Below are positions 17,424-32,779 of a stretch of DNA of 64,000 nt, piece after piece. The position numbers and the translations under genes were made by a program. The DNA comes from Gallionellales bacterium RIFCSPLOWO2_02_FULL_59_110 (GTDB lineage Bacteria; Pseudomonadota; Gammaproteobacteria; Burkholderiales; Gallionellaceae), in contig MGXA01000070.1 in NCBI GenBank assembly GCA_001801215.1, positions 1-64,000 on the forward strand, read 5' to 3'. The notes under the pieces were generated by a model. The model did no database searches and had not been told where the DNA came from. It saw nothing but the letters and a program-made list of their open reading frames with translations. How positions within the stretch are numbered: position 1 is the first letter of the stretch; each line of letters opens with the position of its first letter.

Positions 17424-17466
17424 TTCGCGATGTAATCTGCTTGACGATAAGCCTCGGGGAGTGGCA

Positions 17467-20070
17467 ATGAACAAGGGGATGTTCTGGAAAAAAGACTGGT
17501 TCGTCGGTTTGTTGGTGGCGCTGGTGTTTTTGCTTGGCGCGAACACCGACCTGATGCAAAGCCTGGAGCGCAAGGCATATGACTTGGGGATGCTGGCTTC
17601 GTCGCGTGCGCCGAGCGACAAGATTGCGGTAATCGCGATCGACGAGCAGAGCATCGCAAATCTGGGCCGCTGGCCATGGTCGCGCGAAATTCACGCCAAG
17701 ATGGTGGATATCCTCGCGGCGGGACATGCCAAAGTTATCGGGCATACCGCTTTCTTTTTCGAGCCGCAGGTCGATGCGGGACTCGCCTACATACATCAAA
17801 TCGCCGGGTTGCTGGGCAAGCAGCATTTGCTGGATGGAACGCAGCCTGCGGCGGTGGTTCCCGAGGTGGCGGCAAGTGGCGTTAGCGCCGCGGATGCGGG
17901 TAGCCCGGAGCAACAGTTGACCCCGGATGAGCCCTCGCCGCTGGACACGCTGCTGCTGGAAGCGGCGCAAAATCTCAACAACGACCAGAAACTCAGCGAC
18001 AGCATGGCTAACGCCAACGATGTGCTGCTGGCAATGTTTTTCGATCTGGGCGAACCGCAAGGTAAACCCGACGAGGCGCTGCCCGACTATGTGCTGCGCA
18101 ACAATCTCATCAACGTGAAAGGCTCCGGCGCGCAGCCGTTACCTTCGCGCGGCATGCTGGCGCCGATCCCGGCTTTGGGCGGCAAGGCATTGGCCATCGG
18201 TCATCTGAACAGTTTTCCGGACGTGGACGGCGCGGTGCGCACCGAGCCGCTGGTGGTGAGCTACTACGACCAATATTATCCCTCCTTGTCGCTGATGCTG
18301 GCGGCCAAGAGCCTCAATCTTGACGCCAGGGATATCCACGTCAGCCTGGGCGAAGGCGTGCAGTTGGGCAACCGGAAAATCGCCACCGATCCGGCCTTGC
18401 AGATGCATACCTATTTTTACAAGGATACGGATGGGCGTCCCGCTTTCCCGGTGGATTCTTTCTACGACGTGTTTACCGGCAAGATACCGGCGGAAAAATA
18501 CCGCGACAAGATCGTGCTGATCGGTGCGTCGGCCGCCGGCGTCGGCACCTTGCAGGTGACGCCGGTTTCTGCGGGCATGGCGCCCGCGTTGATCCTGGCG
18601 CATTCGGTGTCCAGCATTCTCAAGGGCGATTATTTCGTGGCGCCGGACTGGGGGGTGATGGCGGAAATCGGCGTGTTCCTGCTGGTCGCGCTGTACCTGG
18701 TTCTGTTGCTGCCGCGTCTCGGTGCGGCGGTTGGTGCCGCAGTTACCGGCGCATTGTTCGCGGCATTGCTGGCGGCGCACTTCGTGCTGATGACGACTCA
18801 GGCGCTGTGGCTGCAACTGATGCTGCCCTCGACTTTGCTGCTGGTCGGCCATGCGCTGCTGACCACCAAGCGCTTCCTGGTGACGGAGAAGGGCAAACAT
18901 AAATCCGATGCCGAATCCGCGGAAAGCAACCGTATGCTGGGGCTGGCATTCCAGGGACAGGGGCAGCTGGACATCGCCTTCGACAAGTTCCGCAAGGTGC
19001 CGATGGACGACAGTCTGATGGAGGTGCTGTACAACCTGGGGCTGGATTTCGAGCGCAAACGCCAGTTCAACAAGGCCGAATCGGTATTCAAATATATGGC
19101 CGAATACAACCCCAAGTTCCGCGATCTGGAGCAGCGCGTGAAGCAGGTGCAGGCCATGTCCGAAACAGTCATTCTCGGAAGCGGCGGAGGCGGGCGCACC
19201 AATGCCAGCACCATGGTGCTGGACAAGGCGGGCGTGTCCAAGCCGATGCTGGGGCGTTACGAGATCGAGAAGGAGCTCGGCAAGGGCGCGATGGGCGTGG
19301 TGTATTACGGCAAGGATCCCAAGATTGGCCGCGTGGTGGCGATCAAGACCATGGCCCTGGCTCAGGAGTTCGAGCCGGACGAATTGCAGGACGTGAAGGA
19401 ACGCTTCTTCCGCGAGGCGGAAACGGCGGGACGTTTGAACCATCCGAACATCGTGTCGATTTACGATGCCGGCGAGGAGCACGACCTGGCTTATATCGCG
19501 ATGGAATTTCTCAAGGGCAAGGATCTGGTGCCGTTTACCAAACCGGGCAATCTGCTGCCGCTGGACAGGGTGATGAGCATCGTTGCCCGTGTCGCCGACG
19601 CGCTGGATTATGCGCACAGGCAGAACGTGGTACATCGCGACATCAAGCCGGCCAACATCATGTACGACCCGGAAACCGATACGCCCAAGGTGACCGATTT
19701 CGGCATCGCGCGCATTACCGATTCGAGCAAAACCAAAACCGGCATGGTGCTGGGCACGCCTTCGTTCATGTCGCCGGAGCAGCTGGCTGGCAGGAAGATC
19801 GAGGGGCATTCCGACCTGTTCTCGCTGGGCGCGAGCCTCTACCAACTGGCTTGTGGTAAGCTTCCATTCGAGGGCGACTCGATGGCGCAGTTGATGTACC
19901 GTATCGCCAACGAACCCCATGCCGATATTTTGAGCATCCGGCCGGATTTGCCGCCTTGTCTGGTGACCATCGTCAACAAGTCGCTGGCCAAACAGATCGA
20001 AGACCGTTACGCCAATGGCGCGGAGATGGCTGAAGCGTTACGCCGATGCGCGGCCGGCTTGCAGGGATGA
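17467..20070 (+). CDS. CHASE2-domain sensor Ser/Thr protein kinase with internal TPR-like segment
   Basis: N-terminal TM + CHASE2 region (IAVIAIDEQSIANLGRWPWSREIHAKMVDIL, KIVLIGASAAGVGTLQVTPV), three TMs, kinase GKGAMGVVYYG, VVHRDIKPANIMYD, DFGIARIT. Confidence 0.93.
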   Translation: MNKGMFWKKDWFVGLLVALVFLLGANTDLMQSLERKAYDLGMLASSRAPSDKIAVIAIDEQSIANLGRWPWSREIHAKMVDILAAGHAKVIGHTAFFFEPQVDAGLAYIHQIAGLLGKQHLLDGTQPAAVVPEVAASGVSAADAGSPEQQLTPDEPSPLDTLLLEAAQNLNNDQKLSDSMANANDVLLAMFFDLGEPQGKPDEALPDYVLRNNLINVKGSGAQPLPSRGMLAPIPALGGKALAIGHLNSFPDVDGAVRTEPLVVSYYDQYYPSLSLMLAAKSLNLDARDIHVSLGEGVQLGNRKIATDPALQMHTYFYKDTDGRPAFPVDSFYDVFTGKIPAEKYRDKIVLIGASAAGVGTLQVTPVSAGMAPALILAHSVSSILKGDYFVAPDWGVMAEIGVFLLVALYLVLLLPRLGAAVGAAVTGALFAALLAAHFVLMTTQALWLQLMLPSTLLLVGHALLTTKRFLVTEKGKHKSDAESAESNRMLGLAFQGQGQLDIAFDKFRKVPMDDSLMEVLYNLGLDFERKRQFNKAESVFKYMAEYNPKFRDLEQRVKQVQAMSETVILGSGGGGRTNASTMVLDKAGVSKPMLGRYEIEKELGKGAMGVVYYGKDPKIGRVVAIKTMALAQEFEPDELQDVKERFFREAETAGRLNHPNIVSIYDAGEEHDLAYIAMEFLKGKDLVPFTKPGNLLPLDRVMSIVARVADALDYAHRQNVVHRDIKPANIMYDPETDTPKVTDFGIARITDSSKTKTGMVLGTPSFMSPEQLAGRKIEGHSDLFSLGASLYQLACGKLPFEGDSMAQLMYRIANEPHADILSIRPDLPPCLVTIVNKSLAKQIEDRYANGAEMAEALRRCAAGLQG

Positions 20071-20073
20071 GCT

Positions 20074-20901
20074 ATGAAAATAGAAGACGCGCTTGAAATA
20101 GTCAGCCAGACCCATCCGGGTATGGTGCGTTCGCACAACGAAGACAGCGTCGCGCAGGAACTGGCTTGTGGCTTGGTTGTGCTGGCGGACGGGATGGGTG
20201 GCTATAATGCCGGAGAAGTGGCGAGCGGCATAGCCGTTTCGGTCGTGGCGACGGAAATCTGCCAACGCTTGGAGAGTGTCAGCCCGGTGGATCGCGACGA
20301 GGCAAGCGGCGAGGAATTGGGTGTGGCGCTGCTGCGCGACAACATCCGCAAGGCGAACGCCTCGATCTATCATGCGGCGCAGAGCCAGCCGCAATACGCG
20401 GGAATGGGCACGACCATCGTTTCCGGCCTGTTTTACGACAACCGCGTGGCGGTCGGGCATGTCGGCGATTCGCGCATGTACCGGTTGCGCGGCGAGACGC
20501 TGGAGACGATCACCCGCGACCATTCCCTGTTGCAGGAGCAGATCGACGGCGGGATGATCAGCGTCGAGGATGCGCGCCAGTCCAGGAACAAGAATCTGGT
20601 GACGCGCGCGGTCGGGATCGATGCCGAAGTGGTGCCGGAAATTCATTTGCACGACGTGCTGGTCGGCGATATTTACCTGCTCTGTTCGGACGGCCTGAAC
20701 GACATGGTGGAGGACGAGGATATCCAGTCCACGCTGTATGCGATGCAGGGCAACCTGCCGCTTGCGGTCGAGCAATTGATCCAGATGGCGAACGACAACG
20801 GCGGCCGCGACAATGTTTCGGTGATACTGGTAAAAATCAATGGCGAATTTGCCGTGCCGCGCGGCTGGCTGGCGCAGCTGTTCAAATGGTTCAGGAAGTA
20901 A
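20074..20901 (+). CDS. PP2C-family Ser/Thr protein phosphatase (Stp1/PppA-like)
   Basis: THPGMVRSHNEDSV, VLADGMGGYNAGEVAS, VGHVGDSRMYRLRG, LLCSDGLNDMVED, NGGRDNVSVILV. Confidence 0.95.
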   Translation: MKIEDALEIVSQTHPGMVRSHNEDSVAQELACGLVVLADGMGGYNAGEVASGIAVSVVATEICQRLESVSPVDRDEASGEELGVALLRDNIRKANASIYHAAQSQPQYAGMGTTIVSGLFYDNRVAVGHVGDSRMYRLRGETLETITRDHSLLQEQIDGGMISVEDARQSRNKNLVTRAVGIDAEVVPEIHLHDVLVGDIYLLCSDGLNDMVEDEDIQSTLYAMQGNLPLAVEQLIQMANDNGGRDNVSVILVKINGEFAVPRGWLAQLFKWFRK

Positions 20902-20937
20902 CTGGTTCAAAATTCAGTTTGGGGAAGGGTCAAGACT

Positions 20938-21729
20938 ATGGCTGCAAAATTGATACTTAGCATGGACGGGGTGGTCGTCAAGGAATACCCCCTGAGCAAG
21001 GAGCGCATGACCATCGGGCGCAAGGCGCATAACGATATTGTCATCGACAACCTGGCGGTGAGCGGCGAACATGCGGCAGTCGTCACCATACTGCACGACT
21101 CTTTCCTCGAAGACCTGGACAGCACCAACGGGCTGGAAGTAAACGGGGTTCCGACCAAGAAGCACTTCCTGCAAAACAACGACCTGATCGAGATCGGCAA
21201 ATACAAGCTGAAATACGTCAACGATCAGGCCGGCCAGACGAACCCCGCCGATTTCGAGAGAACCATGGTGTTGCGCGCGCCGGTCAAACAGGCCGCCCCT
21301 GCCGCAGAAAAAGGCGATACAACCGTGATGGGCATGACAAAGGCCCCAAGCGCCGCCAATGTCAAGCCTGCCGAAATGCTGGATCAAACCGGCAAAGCTG
21401 CGCAGCAGCCGGTCAAACCGGCAATTCCACAGGCGGCTGCCAAGCCGGCCATGGCTTCCGCCTTGCAAGCGGTGGCCGTGCAAATTCTGACCGGCCCCAA
21501 CGCCGGGAAGGAGCTGGAACTGGTCAAGAACCTCACCACGCTGGGCAAACCCGGCGTGCAGGTGGCTGTCCTGACGCGCCGCCCGCACGGTTACTTTATC
21601 ACCCATGTGGAAGGCGCAAACCATCCAACGGTGAACGGAACGCCGTTGAGCGACCAGCCGCATCAGCTTAACGACCATGATGTGATCGAGCTGGCCGGGG
21701 TGAAAATGGAGTTTTATTTCAAGGGATAA
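20938..21729 (+). CDS. FHA-domain protein (two FHA domains)
   Basis: MTIGRKAHNDIVIDNLAVSGEHAAV...DLDSTNGLEVNGVPTKKHFLQNNDLIEIGKY; second FHA-like domain 'TTLGKPGVQVAVLTRRPHGYFITHVEGANHPTVNGTPL'. Confidence 0.9.
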   Translation: MAAKLILSMDGVVVKEYPLSKERMTIGRKAHNDIVIDNLAVSGEHAAVVTILHDSFLEDLDSTNGLEVNGVPTKKHFLQNNDLIEIGKYKLKYVNDQAGQTNPADFERTMVLRAPVKQAAPAAEKGDTTVMGMTKAPSAANVKPAEMLDQTGKAAQQPVKPAIPQAAAKPAMASALQAVAVQILTGPNAGKELELVKNLTTLGKPGVQVAVLTRRPHGYFITHVEGANHPTVNGTPLSDQPHQLNDHDVIELAGVKMEFYFKG

Positions 21730-21731
21730 CA

Positions 21732-21860
21732 GATGGCAGAGGACAGCGGGCAGGAGACAGAAGCGTTGTCGCGGCTTCGCCGCGCCTTTAATGGAATATT
21801 GCCGCGCAGCGGCAACAAAGCCTCTGTCTCCTGTCCCCTGTCTTCCGTCCTCTGGCAGAC
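21732..21860. repeat. Long imperfect inverted repeat filling the FHA / adenylate cyclase intergenic space
   Basis: Left TGGCAGAGGACAGCGGGCAGGAGACAGAAGCGTTG; reverse complement of right arm TGCCAGAGGACGGAAGACAGGGGACAGGAGACAGAGGCTTTGTTG. Confidence 0.75.
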
Positions 21861-21863
21861 ATC

Positions 21864-24089
21864 GTGAAAAAAAATGCGGTACTGATCGGGCTGGGGCTGC
21901 TGATAATCCTGTTTTTTGCCGGCAATGCCGCGCGTTTCTATCAGCTTAATTTTGTCGATAAGCTGTCCGCCGTCCTGTATGACTACCGTTTGCAGTTGAC
22001 CATGCCGCGTACGGTGGATAGCCGTATCGTCATTCTCGACATCGACGAGAAAAGCCTCAAGGAGGAAGGGCGCTGGCCGTGGAGCCGGGATCGCCTCAGC
22101 CTGCTGATGGACAAGCTGTTCGATAAATATGGCGTGGTAGTGGTCGGTTTCGACGTGGTGTTTGCCGAGAAGGACGAAAGTTCCGGGCTCAGGGTATTGC
22201 AGCAAATCGGGCAAACTCAGCTCAAGGGAGATGCGCAGTTCCAGGCGGCATTGATCCAGCTCCAGCCGCAACTCGAGTATGACAAACTGTTCGCCGACAG
22301 TATCAGGAACCGCAACGTGGTGCTGGGTTATTACCTGACCAATCAGAGCGGCACCGACAATGTGTCAGGGGTGTTGCCCGAACCGGTTTTTCCGGCGGGC
22401 ATATTTAAGGGGCGGCCGATCAGGTTTACGTCCTGGAACGGTTATGGGGCAAATCTTCCGGGATTGCAAAAGGCGGCGGCGGCGGCCGGACACTTCAATC
22501 CGCTGGTGGACGCCGACGGTGTGGTGCGGCGCGTACCGATGGTCGCGGAATACGGCGGAGCCTATTACGAATCCCTGTCGCTGGCGATGGTGCGCACCCT
22601 GTTCGGCCAACCGGAATTGCTGCCGGGTTTTGCCGAGGGCAAAACCGAGGGCTATGGCGGCCTGGAGTGGCTGGAACTGGATACCGCCGCCGGCAAACTG
22701 AAAATCCCGGTGGACGTGGAGGTGGCCACTTTCGTGCCGTACCGCGGCAGGCAAGGGAGCTTCCGCTATATTTCGGTTGCCGATGTGCTGCATGACCGCG
22801 TCGAAATCGAGCAACTCCAGAACAAGATCGTGCTGATAGGCACCACGGCGCCCGGACTGCTCGATCTGCGCGCCACGCCGGTGGCGGAGGTTTATCCGGG
22901 GGTGGAAGCGCACGCCAACATGATTTCCGGCATTCTCGACCAGAACCTGAAAGAGCGGCCGGCCTATATGGTCGGGGCAGAGGTGGTCTGGCTGCTGCTG
23001 ATGGGTATTGCGTTGAGCTTTCTGCTGCCGCGACTGGGGCCGGCCAAGGCAATACTGGTTTCGGCGACCACCTTCGCCATTACGTTCGGCATGAGCCTGG
23101 CCGTCTGGCACTACGGGAACCTGCTGTTTACCGTGGCGAACAGCCTGGTGATGATCGCCTTGCTGTTTGCGCTGAACATGTCCTACGGCTACTTCGTCGA
23201 ATCGCGCACCAAGCGCCAGATTACCGGCCTGTTCGGCCAGTATGTGCCGAGCGAACTGGTCGAGGAAATGGCGGAGCATCCGGAAAGCGTGTCCATGGAA
23301 GGCGACAGCCGCGAGATGACCATCCTGTTTTCCGACGTGCGCGGTTTTACCACGCTTTCGGAGGGGCTGGACCCGAAGGAACTGACGCTGCTGATGAACG
23401 AATTCCTCACCCCCTTGTCACGAGTTATTTACAAGCATCGCGGCACCATCGATAAATACATGGGCGATTGCATCATGGCATTCTGGGGCGCGCCGCTGCC
23501 GGATGCGAACCATGCGCGCCATGCAATCCTGGCAGGCATCGAGATGCAAGCGGCCCTGAAGGCGTTGCAGCCGCACTTCAAGGAACGCGGCTGGCCGGAG
23601 ATTTACATCGGCATAGGTATCAACAGCGGGCGCGTCAGCGTCGGCAACATGGGTTCCGAAGTGCGCGTGGCCTACACGGTAATGGGCGATGAAGTGAACC
23701 TCGCCTCGCGTCTGGAAGGTATTACCAAGCAGTACGGCGTCGGCGTGATCGTCGGCGAAAACACCAAAAATGCCGTAACCGATTTTGTCTACCGCGAGCT
23801 TGACCATGTGCGCGTGAAAGGCAAGGAGAAACCAATCGCGATTTACGAGCCCATCGGCCTGTCCAGCGAAGTGAGTAAGGATTTGCAGGACGAGGTCAAG
23901 CTGTTCCACGAAGCGCGCCGCCTGTACCGCAGGCAGGACTGGGATCAGGCCGAGTTGCAACTGATGAATTTGCAGCGCATGTCGCCGGATGCGGCACTGT
24001 ACGGAATTTATGCCGAGCGCATCGCCTATTTCCGTAAAAATCCGCCTGCGGCGGATTGGGATGGCGTGTTTGTGTTCCAGACCAAGTGA
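21864..24089 (+). CDS. CHASE2-domain class III adenylate/guanylate cyclase (GTG start)
   Basis: CHASE2 region (RIVILDIDEKSLKEEGRWPWSRDRLSLLMDKL; NKIVLIGTTAPGLLDLRATPV); cyclase domain MTILFSDVRGFTTLSEGLDP, GTIDKYMGDCIMAFWGAPLPDANHARHA, GINSGRVSVGNMGSEVRVAYTVMGDEVNLASRLEG. Confidence 0.95.
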   Translation: MKKNAVLIGLGLLIILFFAGNAARFYQLNFVDKLSAVLYDYRLQLTMPRTVDSRIVILDIDEKSLKEEGRWPWSRDRLSLLMDKLFDKYGVVVVGFDVVFAEKDESSGLRVLQQIGQTQLKGDAQFQAALIQLQPQLEYDKLFADSIRNRNVVLGYYLTNQSGTDNVSGVLPEPVFPAGIFKGRPIRFTSWNGYGANLPGLQKAAAAAGHFNPLVDADGVVRRVPMVAEYGGAYYESLSLAMVRTLFGQPELLPGFAEGKTEGYGGLEWLELDTAAGKLKIPVDVEVATFVPYRGRQGSFRYISVADVLHDRVEIEQLQNKIVLIGTTAPGLLDLRATPVAEVYPGVEAHANMISGILDQNLKERPAYMVGAEVVWLLLMGIALSFLLPRLGPAKAILVSATTFAITFGMSLAVWHYGNLLFTVANSLVMIALLFALNMSYGYFVESRTKRQITGLFGQYVPSELVEEMAEHPESVSMEGDSREMTILFSDVRGFTTLSEGLDPKELTLLMNEFLTPLSRVIYKHRGTIDKYMGDCIMAFWGAPLPDANHARHAILAGIEMQAALKALQPHFKERGWPEIYIGIGINSGRVSVGNMGSEVRVAYTVMGDEVNLASRLEGITKQYGVGVIVGENTKNAVTDFVYRELDHVRVKGKEKPIAIYEPIGLSSEVSKDLQDEVKLFHEARRLYRRQDWDQAELQLMNLQRMSPDAALYGIYAERIAYFRKNPPAADWDGVFVFQTK

Positions 24090-24093
24090 TTCG

Positions 24094-24166
24094 GTAGGGG
24101 CGCGATTTATCGCGCCCTTCGCCGGGAGCAAGAATAGTTAGGGGCGCGATAAATCGCGCCCCTACG
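24094..24166. repeat. REPIN-like doublet: two inverted GTAGGGGCGCGATTTATCGCGCCC units
   Basis: GTAGGGGCGCGATTTATCGCGCCC ... GGGGCGCGATAAATCGCGCCCCTAC. Confidence 0.9.
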
Positions 24167-24194
24167 GATCATCAAGATTAAAGGCGACAAAACG

Positions 24195-24959
24195 ATGAAA
24201 CTCAGAGTATTGGGGTGTAGCGGCGGGATCGGTGGCAATCAGCGCACCACCTCGTTCCTGCTCGATCATGACGTGCTGATCGATGCAGGAACGGGTGTCA
24301 ACGAACTCAGCCTTGCCGAAATCAGCATGATCGACCATGTTTTTATCACCCATTCGCATCTCGACCATATCGCCTGCATCCCGTTCATGGTGGACAGCGC
24401 ATGGGCCATGCGCGACCGCCCGCTGACCATTTACGCCATCGAGGAAACGCTGGGCATCCTCAGGCAGCATATTTTCAACTGGAAAATATGGCCGGATTTC
24501 ACGGAAATCCCCGACGCCTGCCAACCTTCCATGCGTTACCGTCCGATAGCACTGGGCGAGACGGTTGTGTTGGGCGAACGCAGGATAACCGCCATTCCGG
24601 CCCATCATGCTGTACCTGCGGTCGGTTTTCATCTGGATAGCGGCGAGGCGAGCCTGGTATATAGCGGGGATACCACCGTCAACGATGACGTATGGGAGGC
24701 GGTTAACCGGATCGAAAATTTACGCTATCTCATCATTGAAACCGCATTCTCGGACGGCGAAAAAGAGCTGGCGGTACTGTCCATGCACCTTTGCCCGAGC
24801 ATGCTGGCGGGAGAACTGAAAAAATTCCGGCGCGATGCCGAGGTGTTTGTGACACATCTGAAGCCGGGTGAAGTGGAGCTGACCATGCGGCAGATCGAAA
24901 GCGCCGTTCATGACCGGCAGCCCAAAATGCTGTTGAACGGCCAGGAGCTCGAGTTTTAG
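24195..24959 (+). CDS. Metallo-beta-lactamase fold protein resembling class II 3',5'-cAMP phosphodiesterase
   Basis: VFITHSHLDHIACIPFMVD, QHIFNWKIWPDF, LVYSGDTTVND; 'FITHSHLDH' + 'IFNWKIWPD' pattern of PDEase_II. Confidence 0.78.
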   Translation: MKLRVLGCSGGIGGNQRTTSFLLDHDVLIDAGTGVNELSLAEISMIDHVFITHSHLDHIACIPFMVDSAWAMRDRPLTIYAIEETLGILRQHIFNWKIWPDFTEIPDACQPSMRYRPIALGETVVLGERRITAIPAHHAVPAVGFHLDSGEASLVYSGDTTVNDDVWEAVNRIENLRYLIIETAFSDGEKELAVLSMHLCPSMLAGELKKFRRDAEVFVTHLKPGEVELTMRQIESAVHDRQPKMLLNGQELEF

Positions 24960-26063
24960 ATGACTTACGCGCTCGACATCAAGGTGCTGGCAGGACTGGA
25001 GCCGATTTCCTCGTTCGGCCCGGCGCGCTTGCGCGAGTTGCTCGATTATTGCCATATCGAAACTGTGTTCAAAGGCAGCGACCCGTTCAAGGCGCATGGC
25101 CTGCAAGGACAGTCGGTCTACTTGTTGGACGGCGAACTCGAACTGGTTTACCAGGACGGCAACCGGGTGGTGGTCGGCGCGCAGTCCGAATGGGCCAAAC
25201 ACCCGTTGGGCAAGCGTCAGCCGAGCATCGTTTCCGCTTCGGCATTGCGCGAGAGCCAGTTGCTGCGTGTCGATGACGAATTGCTGGACAGAATAGTTAC
25301 CCTGGATCAGTTTTCTCAGCATGCCCCTGTCGAGCGCTCTTTTTCCGTGCCGGGACATGCAGACCCCAACGACGCCTCGACCAGCATCAAGCGTTTGCTC
25401 AACTCCAGCATGTTCAGCGCGGACAACCTCAAGAACGGGCCGCTGGCGCATTTGCCGATGGCGAACGTCAGCGCGCTGTTGCAGCGCATCGAAGCGATTG
25501 CCGTGTGGGAAGGTGATGTCATCATCCGCGAAGGCGACGAGGGGGACTATTACTATCTGATCGATAGCGGGCGCGCACAGGTGACGCGCCGCGTAGGCGG
25601 TGTGGACTTGCTGCTGGCCAACCTGAAGGCGGGCGATGTGTTTGGCGAGGAAGCGCTGGTTTCGGACGTGAAACGCAATGCGACCGTCACGATGAAATCC
25701 AACGGGGTATTATTGCGCCTCGGGCGGCAGGATTTCATGGAACTGCTGCAGGAGCCGTTGCTGCATAAGTTGAGTTACGAGCAGGCCGTGCGGGCCGTGG
25801 CGCAGGGCGCGGTATGGCTGGACGTGCGGCATCCTCCAGAGTACCGGTACGACAGGCTGCCAGGGGCGATGAACGTGCCGCTGAACGATATACGTAACGC
25901 GCTCGGTGTACTGGATCCCGGCAAGAAATATATCGCCTACTGCCAGAGCGGGCGGCGCAGCGCGGCTGCCGCATTTATCCTGGCGCAGGCCGGGTATGAT
26001 GTGCGAGTGCTGGACGGCGGGCTGTGGTCGGTGCCAAAAACGACACAAAATACAGAGCGGTGA
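24960..26063 (+). CDS. Tandem cyclic-nucleotide-binding domains (first degenerate) fused to rhodanese
   Basis: GDYYYLIDSGRAQVTRR...GDVFGEEALVSDVKRNATVTMKS CNB motif; C-terminal VWLDVRHPPEYRYDRLPGAMNVPL...YCQSGRRSAAAAFILAQAGYDVRVLDGGL. Confidence 0.9.
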   Translation: MTYALDIKVLAGLEPISSFGPARLRELLDYCHIETVFKGSDPFKAHGLQGQSVYLLDGELELVYQDGNRVVVGAQSEWAKHPLGKRQPSIVSASALRESQLLRVDDELLDRIVTLDQFSQHAPVERSFSVPGHADPNDASTSIKRLLNSSMFSADNLKNGPLAHLPMANVSALLQRIEAIAVWEGDVIIREGDEGDYYYLIDSGRAQVTRRVGGVDLLLANLKAGDVFGEEALVSDVKRNATVTMKSNGVLLRLGRQDFMELLQEPLLHKLSYEQAVRAVAQGAVWLDVRHPPEYRYDRLPGAMNVPLNDIRNALGVLDPGKKYIAYCQSGRRSAAAAFILAQAGYDVRVLDGGLWSVPKTTQNTER

Positions 26064-26076
26064 AACGGGAGCGGTA

Positions 26077-28479
26077 ATGAGTACAGTAATGCCAGGCAAC
26101 GGTGCAGCCGGTAAGGCAGGGGAGAGCAGCCTCAGCATCAAGCTCGAGTTCACCAAGAACCTCAACCATGTTATCAACAAGATTCACGCCACCAGCAATA
26201 TCGATGAAATCATGCTGGATGTCAGCAAGGACATCTGCACGCTGTTCAATGCCGACCGGCTGACCATCTACGTGGTGGGAGAGGATAATGCCTCGCTCGT
26301 TTCAAAAGTCAAAACCGGGCTGAATTCGTTCAAGGATCTCAAGCTGCCGATTGCGGAACAGAGCGTCGCCGGTTTTGCGGCGATGCACAAGAAGCTGCTC
26401 AACGTCAAGGATGTCTACGATGTGCAGGAGCTGGCTGGGTACAGCCCCCAGTTGCGTTTTTTGCAGGAAGTCGACAAGCGTACCGGCTACCGCACCAAGC
26501 AGATGCTGGTTGCGCCCATCCTGGATACCAGCGGCGATCTGGTCGGCGTTATTCAAATCATCAACAACAGGGCGGGCGCTCCTTTCGCGGCGATGGTCGA
26601 GGAGGGAGTGCAGGAACTGGTGCAGAGCATGGCGGTGGCGTTGCGCCAGCGCCAGCAAATTGCCACGGTCAAGACCAAATACGATTTTCTGGTGGCCGAC
26701 GCGGTGCTTTCCGCGGCGGAGTTCGAACTGGCGACCCGCACCGCCCGCCGCAAGGGAGTCGATATCGAGGAGGTGCTGATCGACGAATTCCAGGTCAGCG
26801 TCGCCGCGCTGGGCAAGGCGTTATCCGCTTTCTTCGGCGTGCCTTACGAACCCTACAAGGCGGATCGCATCAAGCCGTCCGACTTGCTGAAAAACCTGAA
26901 GCGGGAATACGTGGGAAGCAGCCACTGGATTCCGATCGAGGACACCCAGGAGGGGTTGGTGATCCTGACCACCGACCCGGAGCGGATCCAGACCTCGCGC
27001 GTGGTCAACAACATTTTTCCCAAGCACCGGCTGGCCTACAAAGTTTGCTCGCAACGCGAATTCAAGCAGACCCTCGACTTGTTCTATGGCGGGGGCGGAG
27101 GCGACGCGGGCAGCGGTTTTGCCGTGGACGAATCGTCAATGGACGATCTGCTGTCCAGCATGGGCGGGGACGAAGAAGAGAGCGGCGGCGCCAGCCAGGA
27201 CGATGTCAGCGCCGCGGCCGACAACGAGCTGGTCAAGCTGGTCAACAAGATCATCGTCGACAGTTACCGCATGGGCGCGTCGGATATCCATATCGAGCCG
27301 GGGCCGGGCAAGATGAAAACGCAGATCCGCGTGCGCAAGGATGGCTCGCTGCTCAATTACATCGAGGTACCCTCCACCTACCGCAACGCGCTGGTGACGC
27401 GCCTCAAGATCATGTGCGACCTGGATATTTCCGAGAAGCGCAAGCCGCAGGACGGCAAGATCAAGTTCAAGAAGTTCGGCCCGCTGGACATCGAGCTGCG
27501 CGTCGCGACCATCCCGTCGCAGGGCGGCGTCGAGGATGTGGTGATGCGTATTCTCGCTTCCGGCGAGCCGCTGCCGCTGGACAAGATGGGTTTCTCGAAA
27601 CGCAACGACGAGCTGATCAAAGCGACCGTCAGCAAACCGTACGGCCTGTTTTTCGTGTGTGGGCCGACCGGCTCCGGTAAAACGACGACGCTGCACTCCA
27701 TCCTCAAATTCATCAACACGCCCGACACCAAAATTTGGACGGCGGAAGACCCGGTGGAAATCACCCAGAAGGGTCTGCGCCAGGTGCAGATCAACAAGAA
27801 GGCCGGGCTGGATTTCGCCACCATCATGCGCGCCTTCCTGCGCGCCGACCCGGACGTGATCATGGTCGGCGAAATGCGCGACAAGGAGACCGTGTCCATC
27901 GGCATCGAGGCCTCGCTCACCGGGCACCTGGTGTTCGCCACGCTGCACACCAACAGCGCGCCGGAATCCATCATCCGCCTGCTCGACATGGGCATGGATC
28001 CGTTCAACTTTGCCGATGCGCTGCTGGGCATCCTGGCGCAACGCTTGGCGAAACGTTTATGCGCCAGCTGCAAGAAACCGCATATCGCTACCCAAGAGGA
28101 GATCAAGGCCATGATCACCGAATACAGCACCGAACTGACCAACACCACAACCTGGAAAAAAGACCCGGCTGTCGCGATGAAGGCTCTCTATGCGGATTGG
28201 GCCAAGATGTTTGCCGACGACCAGGGGCAGTTCACTTTGTACGAGCCGGTCGGCTGCGACAAATGCACCAACACCGGCTATCGCGGGCGCGTCGGCCTGC
28301 ACGAGTTGCTGATCGGCACCGACCCGGTCAAGAAGGCCATCCAGGAACACGCGCGCGTCGCCGAACTGCTGGCCATCGCCCTCGAGGAAGGGATGCACAC
28401 GCTGAAGCAGGACGGCATGGAGAAGGTGTTGCAGGGCATCACCGACATGCACCAGATACGCGCGGTCTGTATAAAGTAA
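26077..28479 (+). CDS. GspE/PilB-family secretion/pilus ATPase with N-terminal GAF and MshEN-like domains
   Basis: GAF-like 'DEIMLDVSKDICTLFNADRLTIYVV...GVIQIINNR'; GPTGSGKTTTLHSIL Walker A, ASDIHIEPG, TAEDPVEITQKGLRQVQIN, LRADPDVIMVGEMRDKETVSIGIEASLTGHLVFATLHTNSA, CASCKK/CDKCTNTGYRGR. Confidence 0.95.
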   Translation: MSTVMPGNGAAGKAGESSLSIKLEFTKNLNHVINKIHATSNIDEIMLDVSKDICTLFNADRLTIYVVGEDNASLVSKVKTGLNSFKDLKLPIAEQSVAGFAAMHKKLLNVKDVYDVQELAGYSPQLRFLQEVDKRTGYRTKQMLVAPILDTSGDLVGVIQIINNRAGAPFAAMVEEGVQELVQSMAVALRQRQQIATVKTKYDFLVADAVLSAAEFELATRTARRKGVDIEEVLIDEFQVSVAALGKALSAFFGVPYEPYKADRIKPSDLLKNLKREYVGSSHWIPIEDTQEGLVILTTDPERIQTSRVVNNIFPKHRLAYKVCSQREFKQTLDLFYGGGGGDAGSGFAVDESSMDDLLSSMGGDEEESGGASQDDVSAAADNELVKLVNKIIVDSYRMGASDIHIEPGPGKMKTQIRVRKDGSLLNYIEVPSTYRNALVTRLKIMCDLDISEKRKPQDGKIKFKKFGPLDIELRVATIPSQGGVEDVVMRILASGEPLPLDKMGFSKRNDELIKATVSKPYGLFFVCGPTGSGKTTTLHSILKFINTPDTKIWTAEDPVEITQKGLRQVQINKKAGLDFATIMRAFLRADPDVIMVGEMRDKETVSIGIEASLTGHLVFATLHTNSAPESIIRLLDMGMDPFNFADALLGILAQRLAKRLCASCKKPHIATQEEIKAMITEYSTELTNTTTWKKDPAVAMKALYADWAKMFADDQGQFTLYEPVGCDKCTNTGYRGRVGLHELLIGTDPVKKAIQEHARVAELLAIALEEGMHTLKQDGMEKVLQGITDMHQIRAVCIK

Positions 28480-28488
28480 GGAGCCATC

Positions 28489-30213
28489 ATGCATTCCACG
28501 GAGCGCCTGCTGCACCGCCTCAAGGAACTCAACGAGATCGGCATCGCGCTGTCCCAGCAGCGCGATATCAACAGCCTGCTGGAAACCATCCTGGAGGCGG
28601 CCAAACGCATTACCCATGCCGATGCCGGCACGCTCTACCTGCACGAGCCGGAACAGCGCGTATTGCGCTTCGAGATCATGCGCACCGATTCGCTGAACAT
28701 CGCGATGGGCGGCAGCAGCGGCGTGCCGATCACCTTCTATCCGATCCACCTTTACGACAAGGAAGGCAAGCCCATTCATTCGATGGTAGTGAGCCACTCG
28801 GCGCTGAGCGGCGAGACGGTCAATATTTCCGATGCCTATGCTGCGGAAGGTTACGATTTTTCCGGCACCAAAAAATTCGATGCCAAGACCGGCTACCGCT
28901 CGCAGTCTTTCCTCGCCGTGCCGATGCGCAACCACGAGAACGAAATCATCGGAGTGTTGCAGTTAATCAACGCGCAGGACCGCGAAAGTGGCGCGGTCGT
29001 GCCGTTCTCGGGCGACGACCAGCAGCTGTTGGAATCGCTCGCTTCGCAGGCCGCCATCGCGCTCACCAACCGCCGCTTGATCGCGCAACTGGAAGAGCTG
29101 TTCGAATCTTTCATCCAGCTCATCAACACCGCGATCGACGACAAATCCCCCTATACGGCCGGGCATTGCGCGCGCGTGCCGGTGCTGACCATGATGCTGG
29201 CCGAAGCGGTCAACCGCACCGATAGCGGCCCGCTCAAGGATTTTGTGATGTCCGAAAAAGACCGGCATGAATTGAAAATGGCCGGATTGCTGCACGATTG
29301 CGGAAAAATCACCACCCCGGTACATGTGGTGGATAAGTCGACCAAGCTGCATACCCTGCTCGACCGCATCCACCTGATCGACACGCGTTTCGGGGTACTC
29401 AAGCGCGATGCGGAAATAGCCATGCTGCGCGCACTATCAAACCGCCCCTCTGATAAAACCGCTAGCCATTCGACTAGGTCGCCCAAAGATGGCGCCCAAG
29501 TCGCTGGTTATCCCGCGAGCGGGGGGGTGGATGGGGGAGAGGGTGGTATTTCGGAGGAAACCGCTGCGATCCGCGCCGAATACGAGGCGCGCATCCGGCA
29601 GCTCGACGACGACTGCGAGTTTTTGCGCCACTGCAACATCGGCGGCGAAGCCATGTCGGAGGAAGCGCAGCAGCGCGTGCGCCGGATCGCCGCCTACCAG
29701 TGGCGCGATACCGACGGAAAATTGGCCGACTTTCTCAGCGGCGACGAGATCGAGAACCTTAATATCCGCGCCGGCACGTTGACGGCGGCGGAGCGCGAGA
29801 CCATCAACCACCACATCGTCGTCACGATCAAGATGCTGGAATCGTTGCCGTGGCCGAAAAATCTCAATAACGTCCCGGAATATGCGGGCGGACATCACGA
29901 GCGCATGGACGGCAAAGGCTACCCGCGCGGGCTGACGCGCGAGCAGATGTCGGTGCAGGCGCGCATGATGGGCATCGCCGATATTTTCGAGGCGCTCACC
30001 GCCAAAGACCGCCCCTACAAGCTCGGCAAGACCCTGACCGAATCGCTGACCATACTCGGAAAGCTCAAACTGGGCGGGCATATCGACCCCGACCTGTTCG
30101 ACGTATTCATTCGCGAGAAGGTTTATCTCGATTACGCCAACCAGTTTCTCGCGCCCGAGCAGATCGACGCGGTGGATTTGAGCAAGATTCCGGGCGTGAA
30201 CCTGGAGGCATGA
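28489..30213 (+). CDS. GAF + HD-GYP domain protein (c-di-GMP phosphodiesterase-like)
   Basis: GAF 'ILEAAKRITHADAGTLYLHEPEQRVLRFEIMRTDSLN...GVLQLINAQD'; HD 'LLHDCGKITTPVHVVDKSTKL'; GYP 'HHERMDGKGYPRGLTREQMSVQARMMGIADIFEALTAKDRPYK'. Confidence 0.93.
   Translation: MHSTERLLHRLKELNEIGIALSQQRDINSLLETILEAAKRITHADAGTLYLHEPEQRVLRFEIMRTDSLNIAMGGSSGVPITFYPIHLYDKEGKPIHSMVVSHSALSGETVNISDAYAAEGYDFSGTKKFDAKTGYRSQSFLAVPMRNHENEIIGVLQLINAQDRESGAVVPFSGDDQQLLESLASQAAIALTNRRLIAQLEELFESFIQLINTAIDDKSPYTAGHCARVPVLTMMLAEAVNRTDSGPLKDFVMSEKDRHELKMAGLLHDCGKITTPVHVVDKSTKLHTLLDRIHLIDTRFGVLKRDAEIAMLRALSNRPSDKTASHSTRSPKDGAQVAGYPASGGVDGGEGGISEETAAIRAEYEARIRQLDDDCEFLRHCNIGGEAMSEEAQQRVRRIAAYQWRDTDGKLADFLSGDEIENLNIRAGTLTAAERETINHHIVVTIKMLESLPWPKNLNNVPEYAGGHHERMDGKGYPRGLTREQMSVQARMMGIADIFEALTAKDRPYKLGKTLTESLTILGKLKLGGHIDPDLFDVFIREKVYLDYANQFLAPEQIDAVDLSKIPGVNLEA
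29438..29552. repeat. Probable palindromic-element insertion, in-frame, in the HD-GYP linker
   Basis: Low-complexity insert SNRPSDKTASHSTRSPKDGAQVAGYPASGGVDGGEGG; DNA includes TCCCGCGAGCGGGGGGGTGGATGGGGGAGAGGGTGG, related to the CCCTCTCCCC repeat family. Confidence 0.55.
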
Positions 30214-30337: not shown

Positions 30338-32182
30338 CTAATCGGGGTTGAGCGGCCCGAAGCTTTCGAGTTTCTTCTTCAACGCGGGGTCGTGGGGCGT
30401 AAGGGCGAGCGCCTTCTTCAGGTAATACTGCGCCGAACGGGGATCAAGGGATACCAGCAATTCGTAGTCGGCGGCCGCTTCGAAAAACAGCGCGCGCAGC
30501 GAATTGCTGATCCGGGTGTTGCTGGCGCCAGCGGCGAACAGCTTGAGGGCGTCCTGCCGGTTCAGACACTTCGGCATGCCGAGCAATGGCTTGAGAAGGT
30601 GCTGCGGAAGCTCCAAGTCTTTAGATGCATATGGTGTATGCTCCAAGCGATGCGCAAACTCGTCAATCCATTGCTGCTCGACGGGTCTTTTAGATGAGCA
30701 GGCCCAAAAGATTAGCGCCTGGTGGCCAAGCTTGAACGACGCATCCATGGCCGCAGATTGCTCCAGGTAGAAACGGACATTTATCCCGCCCATGGGATCG
30801 CCGACATCGCCGTAGCCCGCCTTGATCAACGCAAGCGCCGCAGCATGGTTGGCCCGGGCGGATTGCGGGTGGCGCGTGGCTTCGATCTGGGAACTGAGCA
30901 GTGGGTTGCTCATCTGCTCGGCGCGCAGCCAGGTAATGAAAGCGAGGATCAGCACGACTGCAACCGCCAGCAGGCCGGTCGTCTGGTATGGGTAGTCCAG
31001 CTTCAGTTTTTGCAGGAAGGTGAGGCCGGTGTAGCCGATGCCCGCGATCAGGCCGAGCGAGGGCAGGTAGTTGCGGTATTCGTGGGCGATTTCCAGCGGC
31101 AAAAAGGTGGATTCGAGGGCGTGTCCGGCGAGGAACCAAGTCAGGGCAAAGCACAGCAATGGCTGGCGGCGGCGCAACAACCAGATTCCCGCGACAACCG
31201 CCGCCCAGCCGGTGAGTGCTACCAAGGTGGCGGGCGGTTCGAGCAGCCCCGCCGACAATGCAAAATCGTCGAGGTAAAGCCCGAAGCCTGCGTAGCTGGG
31301 GGCGACGATCTGCGCCGCATAAAACCACAGCACCCTGGCTTCGGTCAGAAGGCGCTCGGCCAGCGTGAACGGGCGCATCGCGTAAGCGGTTTCCAGCCAG
31401 TTCCAGCCCAGATAGGACAACATGGCCAGCGCAATGATAGCCAGCGCAACAATCGCTGCGGGAATCGTCCACGACTCCTTGCGCGGAAATTCGCCGCGCA
31501 CCGGCGAATTCCTTGCAGTGCGCATCAAGAAGGTGACGGCGAGGATATAAAGCGGAAAGAGCAGCCCGGTTTCCTTGCTCAGGACGGAAAGCGGCCAGAA
31601 CAGCAGCCAACCGGCGCCCAGCCATGCCCAGAACTGCCAGCGGCGCTCGGCCAAGGCGACGGCCTTCAAATGGCAGATCAGCGCCAGCAGCATGAACATT
31701 CCTGACAGCAGGGTCATGCGCTGCACCGCCAGCATCACCGGCATGAAGTTGATCGGATGCACCAGCCAGATGGCCGCGATCCAGAGCGCCAGCCAGCTTT
31801 GGCTTGCTGCGGAGAGCCGGTTTTCCGGCAAGGCGCGCAGCAGCAGCGCCGCGAACCAGGCCGCGAGCAGACCATTGAGCAGATGGATGGCGAGGTTGAT
31901 GGCCTTGAACGCGAACGGGTCGAGGCCGAAGAAATAGTGGGTGAGCGCGAAGCTCAACACGCTGACCGGGCGGCCCAGCGGGCCGGCGGACGGGCCGGCA
32001 AGGCTGGCGCGCAGCGCATCGAAACTCAAAGTGCCGATATGAACGGCGCTGTTTTCGACGATATTCGGGGCGTCGTCGAAAAAAAAACCGCCCTTTAGTC
32101 CGGGGGTAATGACAATCAGCGCCAAAGCCAGAACGGCGATCCAGGATGCGGTGAAAGCCATGGTTTTGCGTGGAGCGTTCAT
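30338..32182 (-). CDS. Polytopic membrane protein with C-terminal TPR-like region (glycosyltransferase/oligosaccharyltransferase-like)
   Basis: GGFFFDDAPNIVEN...LGRPVSVLSFALTHYFFGLDPFAFKAINLAIHLLNGLLAA typical of PMT/TMTC-like membrane proteins; C-terminal 'AQYYLKKALALTPHDPALKKKLE'. Confidence 0.7.
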   Translation of the reverse strand: MNAPRKTMAFTASWIAVLALALIVITPGLKGGFFFDDAPNIVENSAVHIGTLSFDALRASLAGPSAGPLGRPVSVLSFALTHYFFGLDPFAFKAINLAIHLLNGLLAAWFAALLLRALPENRLSAASQSWLALWIAAIWLVHPINFMPVMLAVQRMTLLSGMFMLLALICHLKAVALAERRWQFWAWLGAGWLLFWPLSVLSKETGLLFPLYILAVTFLMRTARNSPVRGEFPRKESWTIPAAIVALAIIALAMLSYLGWNWLETAYAMRPFTLAERLLTEARVLWFYAAQIVAPSYAGFGLYLDDFALSAGLLEPPATLVALTGWAAVVAGIWLLRRRQPLLCFALTWFLAGHALESTFLPLEIAHEYRNYLPSLGLIAGIGYTGLTFLQKLKLDYPYQTTGLLAVAVVLILAFITWLRAEQMSNPLLSSQIEATRHPQSARANHAAALALIKAGYGDVGDPMGGINVRFYLEQSAAMDASFKLGHQALIFWACSSKRPVEQQWIDEFAHRLEHTPYASKDLELPQHLLKPLLGMPKCLNRQDALKLFAAGASNTRISNSLRALFFEAAADYELLVSLDPRSAQYYLKKALALTPHDPALKKKLESFGPLNPD

Positions 32183-32245: not shown

Positions 32246-32779
32246 TTAGAAGTCCTTGCAGGAACCTGGCAGGTATTTCGTTGGAATCGGAAAGGCAGCA
32301 GTAGCCTGAGCGGCTTTACCACTATCAGCAGCCAGGCTCGTTTCGGCACCCGTTGCAACACCCGCTGGAGCTGCACCGCATGTCCAGATTACGGCACCAG
32401 TGGTTTGATTACCCGTAGCCTTCAGGGCAAGCGCTCCACCCCTAGCACCGCCCAGTTTTGTGTCATCCAGCAGTACTACGACAACGTAACCCTCAGTAGC
32501 TGCATTTACCCCCGCCTGGTTCCAAGTCACGCCGTAAACAACACCAGTGGATTGGTCCTGAACGCCCATCGAAAGGGCGCTAGGTAACATTGCGCCATTG
32601 TTGGCAAAAACTTCGGATACGGCGGTGCGGCCTGAGGAAGCGGCCAGCAGACCTTCGGATACCCGTGCGCGGATGGTGTAATCCTGGTAAGCCGGCAACG
32701 CGACGGCGGCCAGAATGCCGATGATCGCGATCACGATCATCAGTTCGATCAGGGTAAAACCTTTTTGTATGCTTTTCAT
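32246..32779 (-). CDS. pilA: Type IV pilin major subunit (PilA/PilE family)
   Basis: [44 protein letters not shown]; two C-terminal-half cysteines (TCGAAP..., PGSCKDF). Confidence 0.95.

Follow-up and report, generated by a model that had tools for sequence, protein, structure and literature searches.

A GAF-domain-containing PilB class as candidate extension motor of type IVa pili, with predicted gating by cyclic AMP

According to a 2024 review, PilB is controlled by cAMP through Pil-Chp and Vfr, at the level of pilus-gene transcription, and by c-di-GMP acting on the MshEN domain (PMC11656802). The c-di-GMP motif of MshEN consists of two 24-residue copies of the pattern RLGxx(L/V/I)2xxG(L/V/I)2xxxxLxxxLxxQ, for which a relaxed form has also been given (PMC5013675). 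Among GAF domains, the cAMP contacts of CyaB2 are formed by R291, T293, I308, D356 and N359 (PMC4411481). The word GAF was found neither in the 2024 review nor in the paper on the extension motor TfpB (PMC8213720). Searches of the open-access literature that combined GAF with PilB or GspE, and CHASE2 with pili, returned no description of the protein reported here.

The window, which is the whole stretch of DNA that was analysed, comprises 64,000 nucleotides. A single open frame at 26077-28479 (+), with a GGGAG ribosome-binding site preceding its ATG at 26077, encodes an ATPase of 800 residues that is referred to here as GAF-PilB. Promoter and terminator matches were no more numerous than in shuffled sequence. 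GAF-PilB lies within eight same-direction genes that extend from 17461 to 30213, and the last four of these are spaced 0-13 bases apart. The genes and domains are given below with their evidence and, where counted, their presence at 40 related loci.

17461-20070, + strand: CHASE2 and Ser/Thr protein kinase (Pfam; 23 of 40 loci)
20074-20901, + strand: PP2C-type phosphatase (Pfam; 32 of 40 loci)
20938-21729, + strand: FHA-domain protein (Pfam; 32 of 40 loci)
21864-24089, + strand: CHASE2 and class III adenylate cyclase (Pfam; 22-23 of 40 loci)
24195-24959, + strand: metallo-beta-lactamase-fold protein, relative of class II cAMP phosphodiesterases (Pfam PDEase_II over cut-off; 35 of 40 loci)
24960-26063, + strand: cNMP-binding and rhodanese protein (Pfam; 13 bp before GAF-PilB; only 7 of 40 loci)
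26077-28479, + strand: GAF-PilB, extension-type ATPase (Pfam, AF2 models, alignment of 37 orthologues)
26134-26655, + strand: its GAF domain of cyclic-nucleotide-binding subtype, residues about 20-193 (phmmer to PDB, column counts, fold match)
26683-27099, + strand: its MshEN-like N1 domain without c-di-GMP motif, residues about 203-338 (Pfam MshEN)
27217-28458, + strand: its T2SSE ATPase core (N2D and CTD), residues 381-795 (Walker A/B, Asp and His boxes, tetracysteine)
28489-30213, + strand: GAF and HD-GYP protein, putative c-di-GMP phosphodiesterase (Pfam HD_5 and HD; 9 bp after GAF-PilB; 30 of 40 loci)
30338-32182, - strand: large membrane protein without Pfam match, between the HD-GYP gene and pilA (homologue beside a pilin in some relatives)
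32246-32779, - strand: type IVa major pilin, PilA-like (Pfam Pilin and N_methyl; 3.8 kb downstream of GAF-PilB)

The first-pass annotation had placed the ATPase between a cNMP-binding protein and an HD-GYP protein, and Pfam confirms both neighbours, the former with a rhodanese domain and the latter with a GAF domain. It had also stated that no pilC or gspF gene adjoins the ATPase, which is correct at this locus. The broader statement that the gene is located away from any pilus operon does not hold, given the major-pilin gene downstream and a pilC locus elsewhere in the genome that has no pilB of its own.

The best PDB match of the cyclase is CyaB of Pseudomonas aeruginosa (3r5g, E 5.5e-38). 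The cyclase gene is missing from about 17 of the 40 loci, including those of probable Nitrosomonas genomes. The metallo-phosphodiesterase is distantly related to yeast PDE1 (4ojv), and a homologue (E<=1e-50) is encoded in 63 of 68 genomes with GAF-PilB versus 26 of 82 others. The translation of the HD-GYP neighbour contains the HD and HERMDGKGYP signatures. The GAF domain of this neighbour (28489-29130) matches PDE5-type GAFs best in the PDB, and by eye it has no Arg at the position of CyaB2 R291. At 26 of 40 related loci, a gene whose product has a pilin-type N-terminus lies downstream in the same orientation; these matches rest mostly on the conserved N-terminus and are therefore read as a type IV pilin, not as orthology. 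The membrane protein at 30338-32182 may be an enzyme of pilin glycosylation. In a second lineage of the phylum (L271, L273, L276), GAF-PilB homologues of 39-40% identity are located near HD-GYP (55%) and CHASE2-cyclase genes. Upstream of these three homologues lies a pdxJ-like gene, accompanied at two of the loci by an acpS-like gene.

Pfam assigns a GAF domain to residues 42-189 (E 2.4e-8), MshEN to residues 253-341 (E 7.7e-10) and T2SSE to residues 381-794 (E 1e-114) of GAF-PilB. The cysteines C662, C665, C727 and C730 show little or no variation across 37 orthologues, as do Walker A (GPTGSGKTTT, 529-538), the Walker B/Glu region (DPDVIMVGE, 591-599) and the His box (TGHLVFATLHT). The protein has the domains and motifs expected of a functional PilB, namely MshEN/N1D, N2D, T2SSE, Walker A/B, the His box and the tetracysteine. 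A degenerate paralogue is rejected because the catalytic motifs are invariant among the orthologues. The AF2 model of residues 1-345 exhibits a GAF fold with a mean pLDDT of 89; the full-length AF2 model, built with the 37 orthologues, has a pLDDT of 31-51 over most of 521-650 and was consequently used for the N-terminus only. The first-pass annotation had read a GAF module ahead of the MshEN-like region, together with Walker A, Asp/His boxes and a tetracysteine motif. Pfam and the model of residues 1-345 support the former, and the alignment shows the latter to be present and conserved. The predicted fold also answers the doubt, raised in the same annotation, that the N-terminal region might have no GAF fold.

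The GAF domain of GAF-PilB is most likely of the cyclic-nucleotide subtype and would bind cAMP (or cGMP). Its top PDB match by phmmer is the tandem GAF of CyaB2 (1ykd, E 7.4e-27), followed by the GAF domain of one HD-GYP protein and then by PDE10A, PDE6, PDE2A and PDE5, such that the strongest sequence matches are nearly all cyclic-nucleotide GAFs. The PtsP GAF trails far behind CyaB2 (E 0.45 versus 7e-27). The CyaB2 contact residues R291 and D356 correspond to R61 and D133, each present in 37 of 37 orthologues; T293 corresponds to T63 (36 of 37) and I308 to V78 (Val or Ile in 37 of 37). The N359 position is occupied by an invariant Thr (T136), as in PDE2A and PDE10A. When homologues of ~25% N-terminal identity are added, R61, D133 and Q160 are still invariant, and T63 and T136 are nearly invariant. 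The NKFDE motif, a frequent feature of cNMP-binding GAFs, is retained only in part; among the 37 orthologues N163 and F170 never change, and the Lys, Asp and Glu positions vary. The cyclic-nucleotide input suggested in the first-pass annotation is thus favoured at the level of GAF subtype by the CyaB2 and PDE relatives and by the conserved cAMP-contact residues. Structure alone cannot tell this domain from other GAFs, as the TM-scores of the model are similar for the PtsP GAF and the cAMP-bound Lcd1 GAF, and nucleotide binding is for this reason a prediction. The domain might instead bind another ligand or merely hold the hexamer together, with no role for cAMP, which is considered unlikely but deserves weight. 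GAF domains take many ligands, the NKFDE motif is incomplete, many loci have no cyclase, and TM-scores to PtsP-type single-domain GAFs are as high as to the Lcd1 domain. The distance of PtsP in the sequence search, the invariance of the contact positions across deep divergence, and the adjoining cyclase and phosphodiesterase genes all argue against it. Direct gating of GAF-PilB by cAMP is predicted and is probably correct.

A different input had been proposed for the MshEN-like region, namely c-di-GMP, so that the ATPase would integrate two second messengers. The Pfam match to MshEN and the adjacent HD-GYP gene are consistent with c-di-GMP control added to cAMP control. However, Arg, Gly and Gln are missing at the motif positions in both 24-residue MshEN stretches of GAF-PilB, and E231 stands in place of the Gly of the second motif in 37 of 37 orthologues. 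The RLG...Q motif, including its relaxed form, was found in 0 of 37 GAF-PilB orthologues; the relaxed form was also found in 0 of 18 canonical PilBs of the order. The MshE-like ATPase of the window genome has two copies of the relaxed motif. Binding of c-di-GMP through MshEN is rejected on the missing motif, and a motor that integrates both messengers is very improbable. Because the motif is missing from all 37 orthologues, two-messenger integration is not upheld within the GAF-PilB protein, although the HD-GYP gene adjoins.

Family-wise and region-wise searches of the window genome (2.8 Mb, 99.7% complete) yielded eleven T2SSE matches. No canonical PilB over the TIGR02538 cut-off was found in this genome. 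GAF-PilB scores below the cut-offs of the PilB model TIGR02538 (484.3 bits versus 675.65), the TfpB model NF053534 (380 versus 850) and the GspE model TIGR02533 (433 versus 630). The ATPase on contig 33 is a GspE (702 bits versus 630) with its own gspF; given this separate protein, GAF-PilB is rejected as the GspE of a type II system. The ATPase on contig 5 is a TfpB (873 bits versus 850), whose gene is separate from that of GAF-PilB. Full-size ATPases on contigs 55, 66 and 18 pass no cut-off, and a platform gene is located near each of them. Judged by sequence, GAF-PilB is best explained as a class distinct from canonical PilB, TfpB, MshE and GspE.

The pilus genes of the window genome point to a vacancy that GAF-PilB could fill. 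PilM and PilQ score over their cut-offs. The locus on contig 27 has the order corC-pilC-pilD-coaE-zapD, in which pilB is missing between corC and pilC, and only 81 bases separate the corC-like gene from pilC. The order in relatives (L106, L107) is corC-pilB-pilC-pilD. GAF-PilB is not encoded with pilC-pilD but on another contig; only chimeric relatives with a GAF-PilB-type ATPase core, in other genomes, are encoded at that position. Since the pilC locus of the genome has no pilB, GAF-PilB is not an extra ATPase beside canonical PilB. The first-pass annotation had suggested a search for a second, canonical pilB. None was found; this refutes its view of GAF-PilB as an additional PilB, and the alternative it named, that the genome has no other PilB, nearly holds. 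Within the window genome, GAF-PilB is the strongest candidate for the motor that extends type IV pili.

A GAF-PilB homologue is present in nearly all of 60 sampled genomes of the same family, most of them 69-90% identical over almost the whole length, and in 68 of 150 genomes sampled from the order. The named carriers include Gallionella, Sideroxydans, Candidatus Nitrotoga, Nitrosomonas europaea and N. eutropha, as well as Azospira, Propionivibrio, Chitinimonas, Methyloversatilis and Sulfurisoma. Judging by its nearest named records, the window probably belongs to a Gallionellaceae genome. A record titled as a Bordetella parapertussis MAG (L195) has the locus at 70% identity and is probably a misnamed environmental bin. 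For the survey of the 150 genomes, GAF-PilB was called at E<=1e-180 and canonical PilB as TIGR02538 over cut-off, and PilC and TfpB were also tabulated. Among the 125 genomes with PilC, 53 have canonical PilB only, 29 have both forms, 38 have GAF-PilB only and 5 have neither. The 29 genomes with both forms indicate that GAF-PilB need not be the only motor. Among genomes without canonical PilB, GAF-PilB is present in 38 of 43 with PilC versus 1 of 24 without PilC (Fisher p 4e-12, uncorrected for relatedness in data that are phylogenetically non-independent). The sole genome that has GAF-PilB but neither PilC nor canonical PilB is 78% complete. In the five genomes with a PilC match and neither PilB form, the PilC matches of G060, G109, G153 and G175 are only 36-40% identical, and the PilQ match of G106 (contig 18) is split in two pieces, perhaps in a decaying pilus system. 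No intact ATPase gene was found beside pilC at the 17 pilC loci read from GAF-PilB-only genomes.

TfpB could be the main extension motor of type IVa pili in the window genome, with GAF-PilB as a second, accessory motor. TfpB scores over its cut-off in the window genome and in 27 of the 38 PilC genomes that have GAF-PilB only, and it could serve PilC there. Acinetobacter divides pilus extension between TfpB and PilB, and in one Pseudomonas strain TfpB is the only one of the two (PMC8213720). In contrast, canonical PilB and TfpB are both missing from the remaining eleven of the 38 genomes, and PilM, PilQ and PilC are present in most of those examined among them. One of these genomes (G164) encodes only four T2SSE ATPases, of which two are of PilT/PilU size, one has its own platform gene, and the last is GAF-PilB; PilM and PilQ are present as well. 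A leading role for TfpB is considered improbable. The replacement of canonical PilB by GAF-PilB in many relatives is well supported, and traces of it are found at the pilC loci themselves. Beside pilC, a decayed canonical pilB is still recognisable in two genomes with GAF-PilB. In G123 (L149:7583-8077), an N-terminal piece is joined to 72 residues that are 83% identical to canonical PilB, and in G061 (L156:5875-6330) a C-terminal piece of 151 residues is 78% identical. The ATPase-less pilC loci and these remnants indicate that canonical pilB was lost in genomes holding GAF-PilB. In Gallionella, Nitrosomonas and many of their relatives, GAF-PilB appears to stand in for the missing canonical motor.

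A chimeric pilB occupies the pilBCD slot in G094, G138, G179 and G188 (L106:9177-11006, L107:9364-11184, L255 and L256) and combines a canonical-type N-terminus with a GAF-PilB-type ATPase. The ATPase part is 75-83% identical to GAF-PilB versus 41-45% to canonical PilB. Conversely, the N-terminus, measured in three of the four chimeras, is 40-52% identical to canonical PilB versus 21-30% to GAF-PilB. In the maximum-likelihood tree of the ATPase part, the chimeras occupy two distinct positions within the GAF-PilB clade; the G188 chimera groups beside the GAF-PilB of its own genome, and the other three group beside the GAF-PilB of G138. On the simplest reading, the GAF-PilB ATPase would have overwritten the pilB ATPase twice, separately, which suggests that a GAF-PilB-type ATPase works with PilC. 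In the same bacterial family, GAF-PilB has two further sister clades, made up of large T2SSE ATPases (about 680-800 aa; loci L108-L115) whose N-terminal regions include MshEN among others. At the three of these loci that were read (L108, L110, L112), no homologue of the PilC of the window genome was found in the vicinity. A role in signalling without pilus assembly, in which the conformations of the ATPase report to exopolysaccharide or kinase pathways, would suit the placement of GAF-PilB in a signalling cluster, and Myxococcus PilB is reported to double as a signalling protein (PMC5544727). The replacement of canonical pilB, the pilB remnants, the chimeras in the pilBCD slot and the pilin neighbours all indicate pilus assembly, which makes this role highly unlikely.

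The preferred reading is that GAF-PilB is a functional PilB of type IVa pili that constitutes a distinct PilB class with GAF-mediated gating by cAMP (or cGMP), and it is regarded as likely. In the proposed mechanism, GAF-PilB would pair with the PilC platform, whose gene lies elsewhere in the genome. The CHASE2-adenylate cyclase would raise cAMP, and the metallo-phosphodiesterase of the same cluster would lower it. Occupation of the GAF domain by cAMP may alter the activity or the assembly of the hexameric motor, in a direction that is itself conjectural, such that pilus extension would answer cAMP directly and not solely through transcription. The kinase, phosphatase and FHA trio, together with the HD-GYP protein, may tune the same motor step. 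The weakest point of this mechanism is presented by the loci without a cyclase, which would need cAMP from elsewhere. More tentatively, and at somewhat less than an even chance, a large part of the Betaproteobacteria, iron and ammonia oxidisers among them, and another lineage of the phylum may extend their type IV pili with a cyclic-nucleotide-receptor motor, in a self-contained circuit from CHASE2 sensor to pilus motor that includes the nucleotide enzymes, a Ser/Thr switch, HD-GYP and the major pilin.

Because the curated PilB model scores GAF-PilB below its cut-off, many ammonia- and iron-oxidising bacteria may seem motorless. If the preferred reading is correct, these bacteria own a pilus motor whose activity is possibly set directly by cAMP. 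The natural replacement, the remnants and the two domain swaps also amount to a natural experiment that could separate the platform-recognising part of PilB from the signal-receiving part.

Among described systems, canonical PilB (TIGR02538) shares with GAF-PilB the order MshEN-N2D-CTD, Walker A/B and the tetracysteine, and a PilC partner and a corresponding role would be alike. In contrast, the ATPase part of GAF-PilB is 42-44% identical to canonical PilB, no closer than to GspE, TfpB and MshE; GAF-PilB has an extra GAF domain, and its gene belongs to a signalling cluster near pilA and not to pilBCD. TfpB, the second extension motor of Acinetobacter (PMC8213720, NF053534), is likewise a PilB-like class outside canonical PilB. 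MshE and other ATPases with c-di-GMP-binding MshEN (PMC5013675) also have an MshEN-type N-terminal domain preceding the ATPase, whereas GAF-PilB has no c-di-GMP motif and has a GAF domain placed in front. The tandem GAFs of Anabaena CyaB2 (1YKD; PMC4411481) are the closest PDB sequence relative of the GAF domain and have the same cAMP-contact residues. Unlike CyaB2, each GAF-PilB chain has a single GAF domain that is joined to a secretion-type ATPase and not to a cyclase, and its NKFDE motif is incomplete. The Pil-Chp/CyaB/Vfr system of P. aeruginosa (PMC11656802) resembles the cluster in its cyclase catalytic domain, which is related to that of CyaB, and in its link to type IV pili. There, cAMP acts through a transcription factor, whereas in GAF-PilB the motor itself has a cyclic-nucleotide-type domain.
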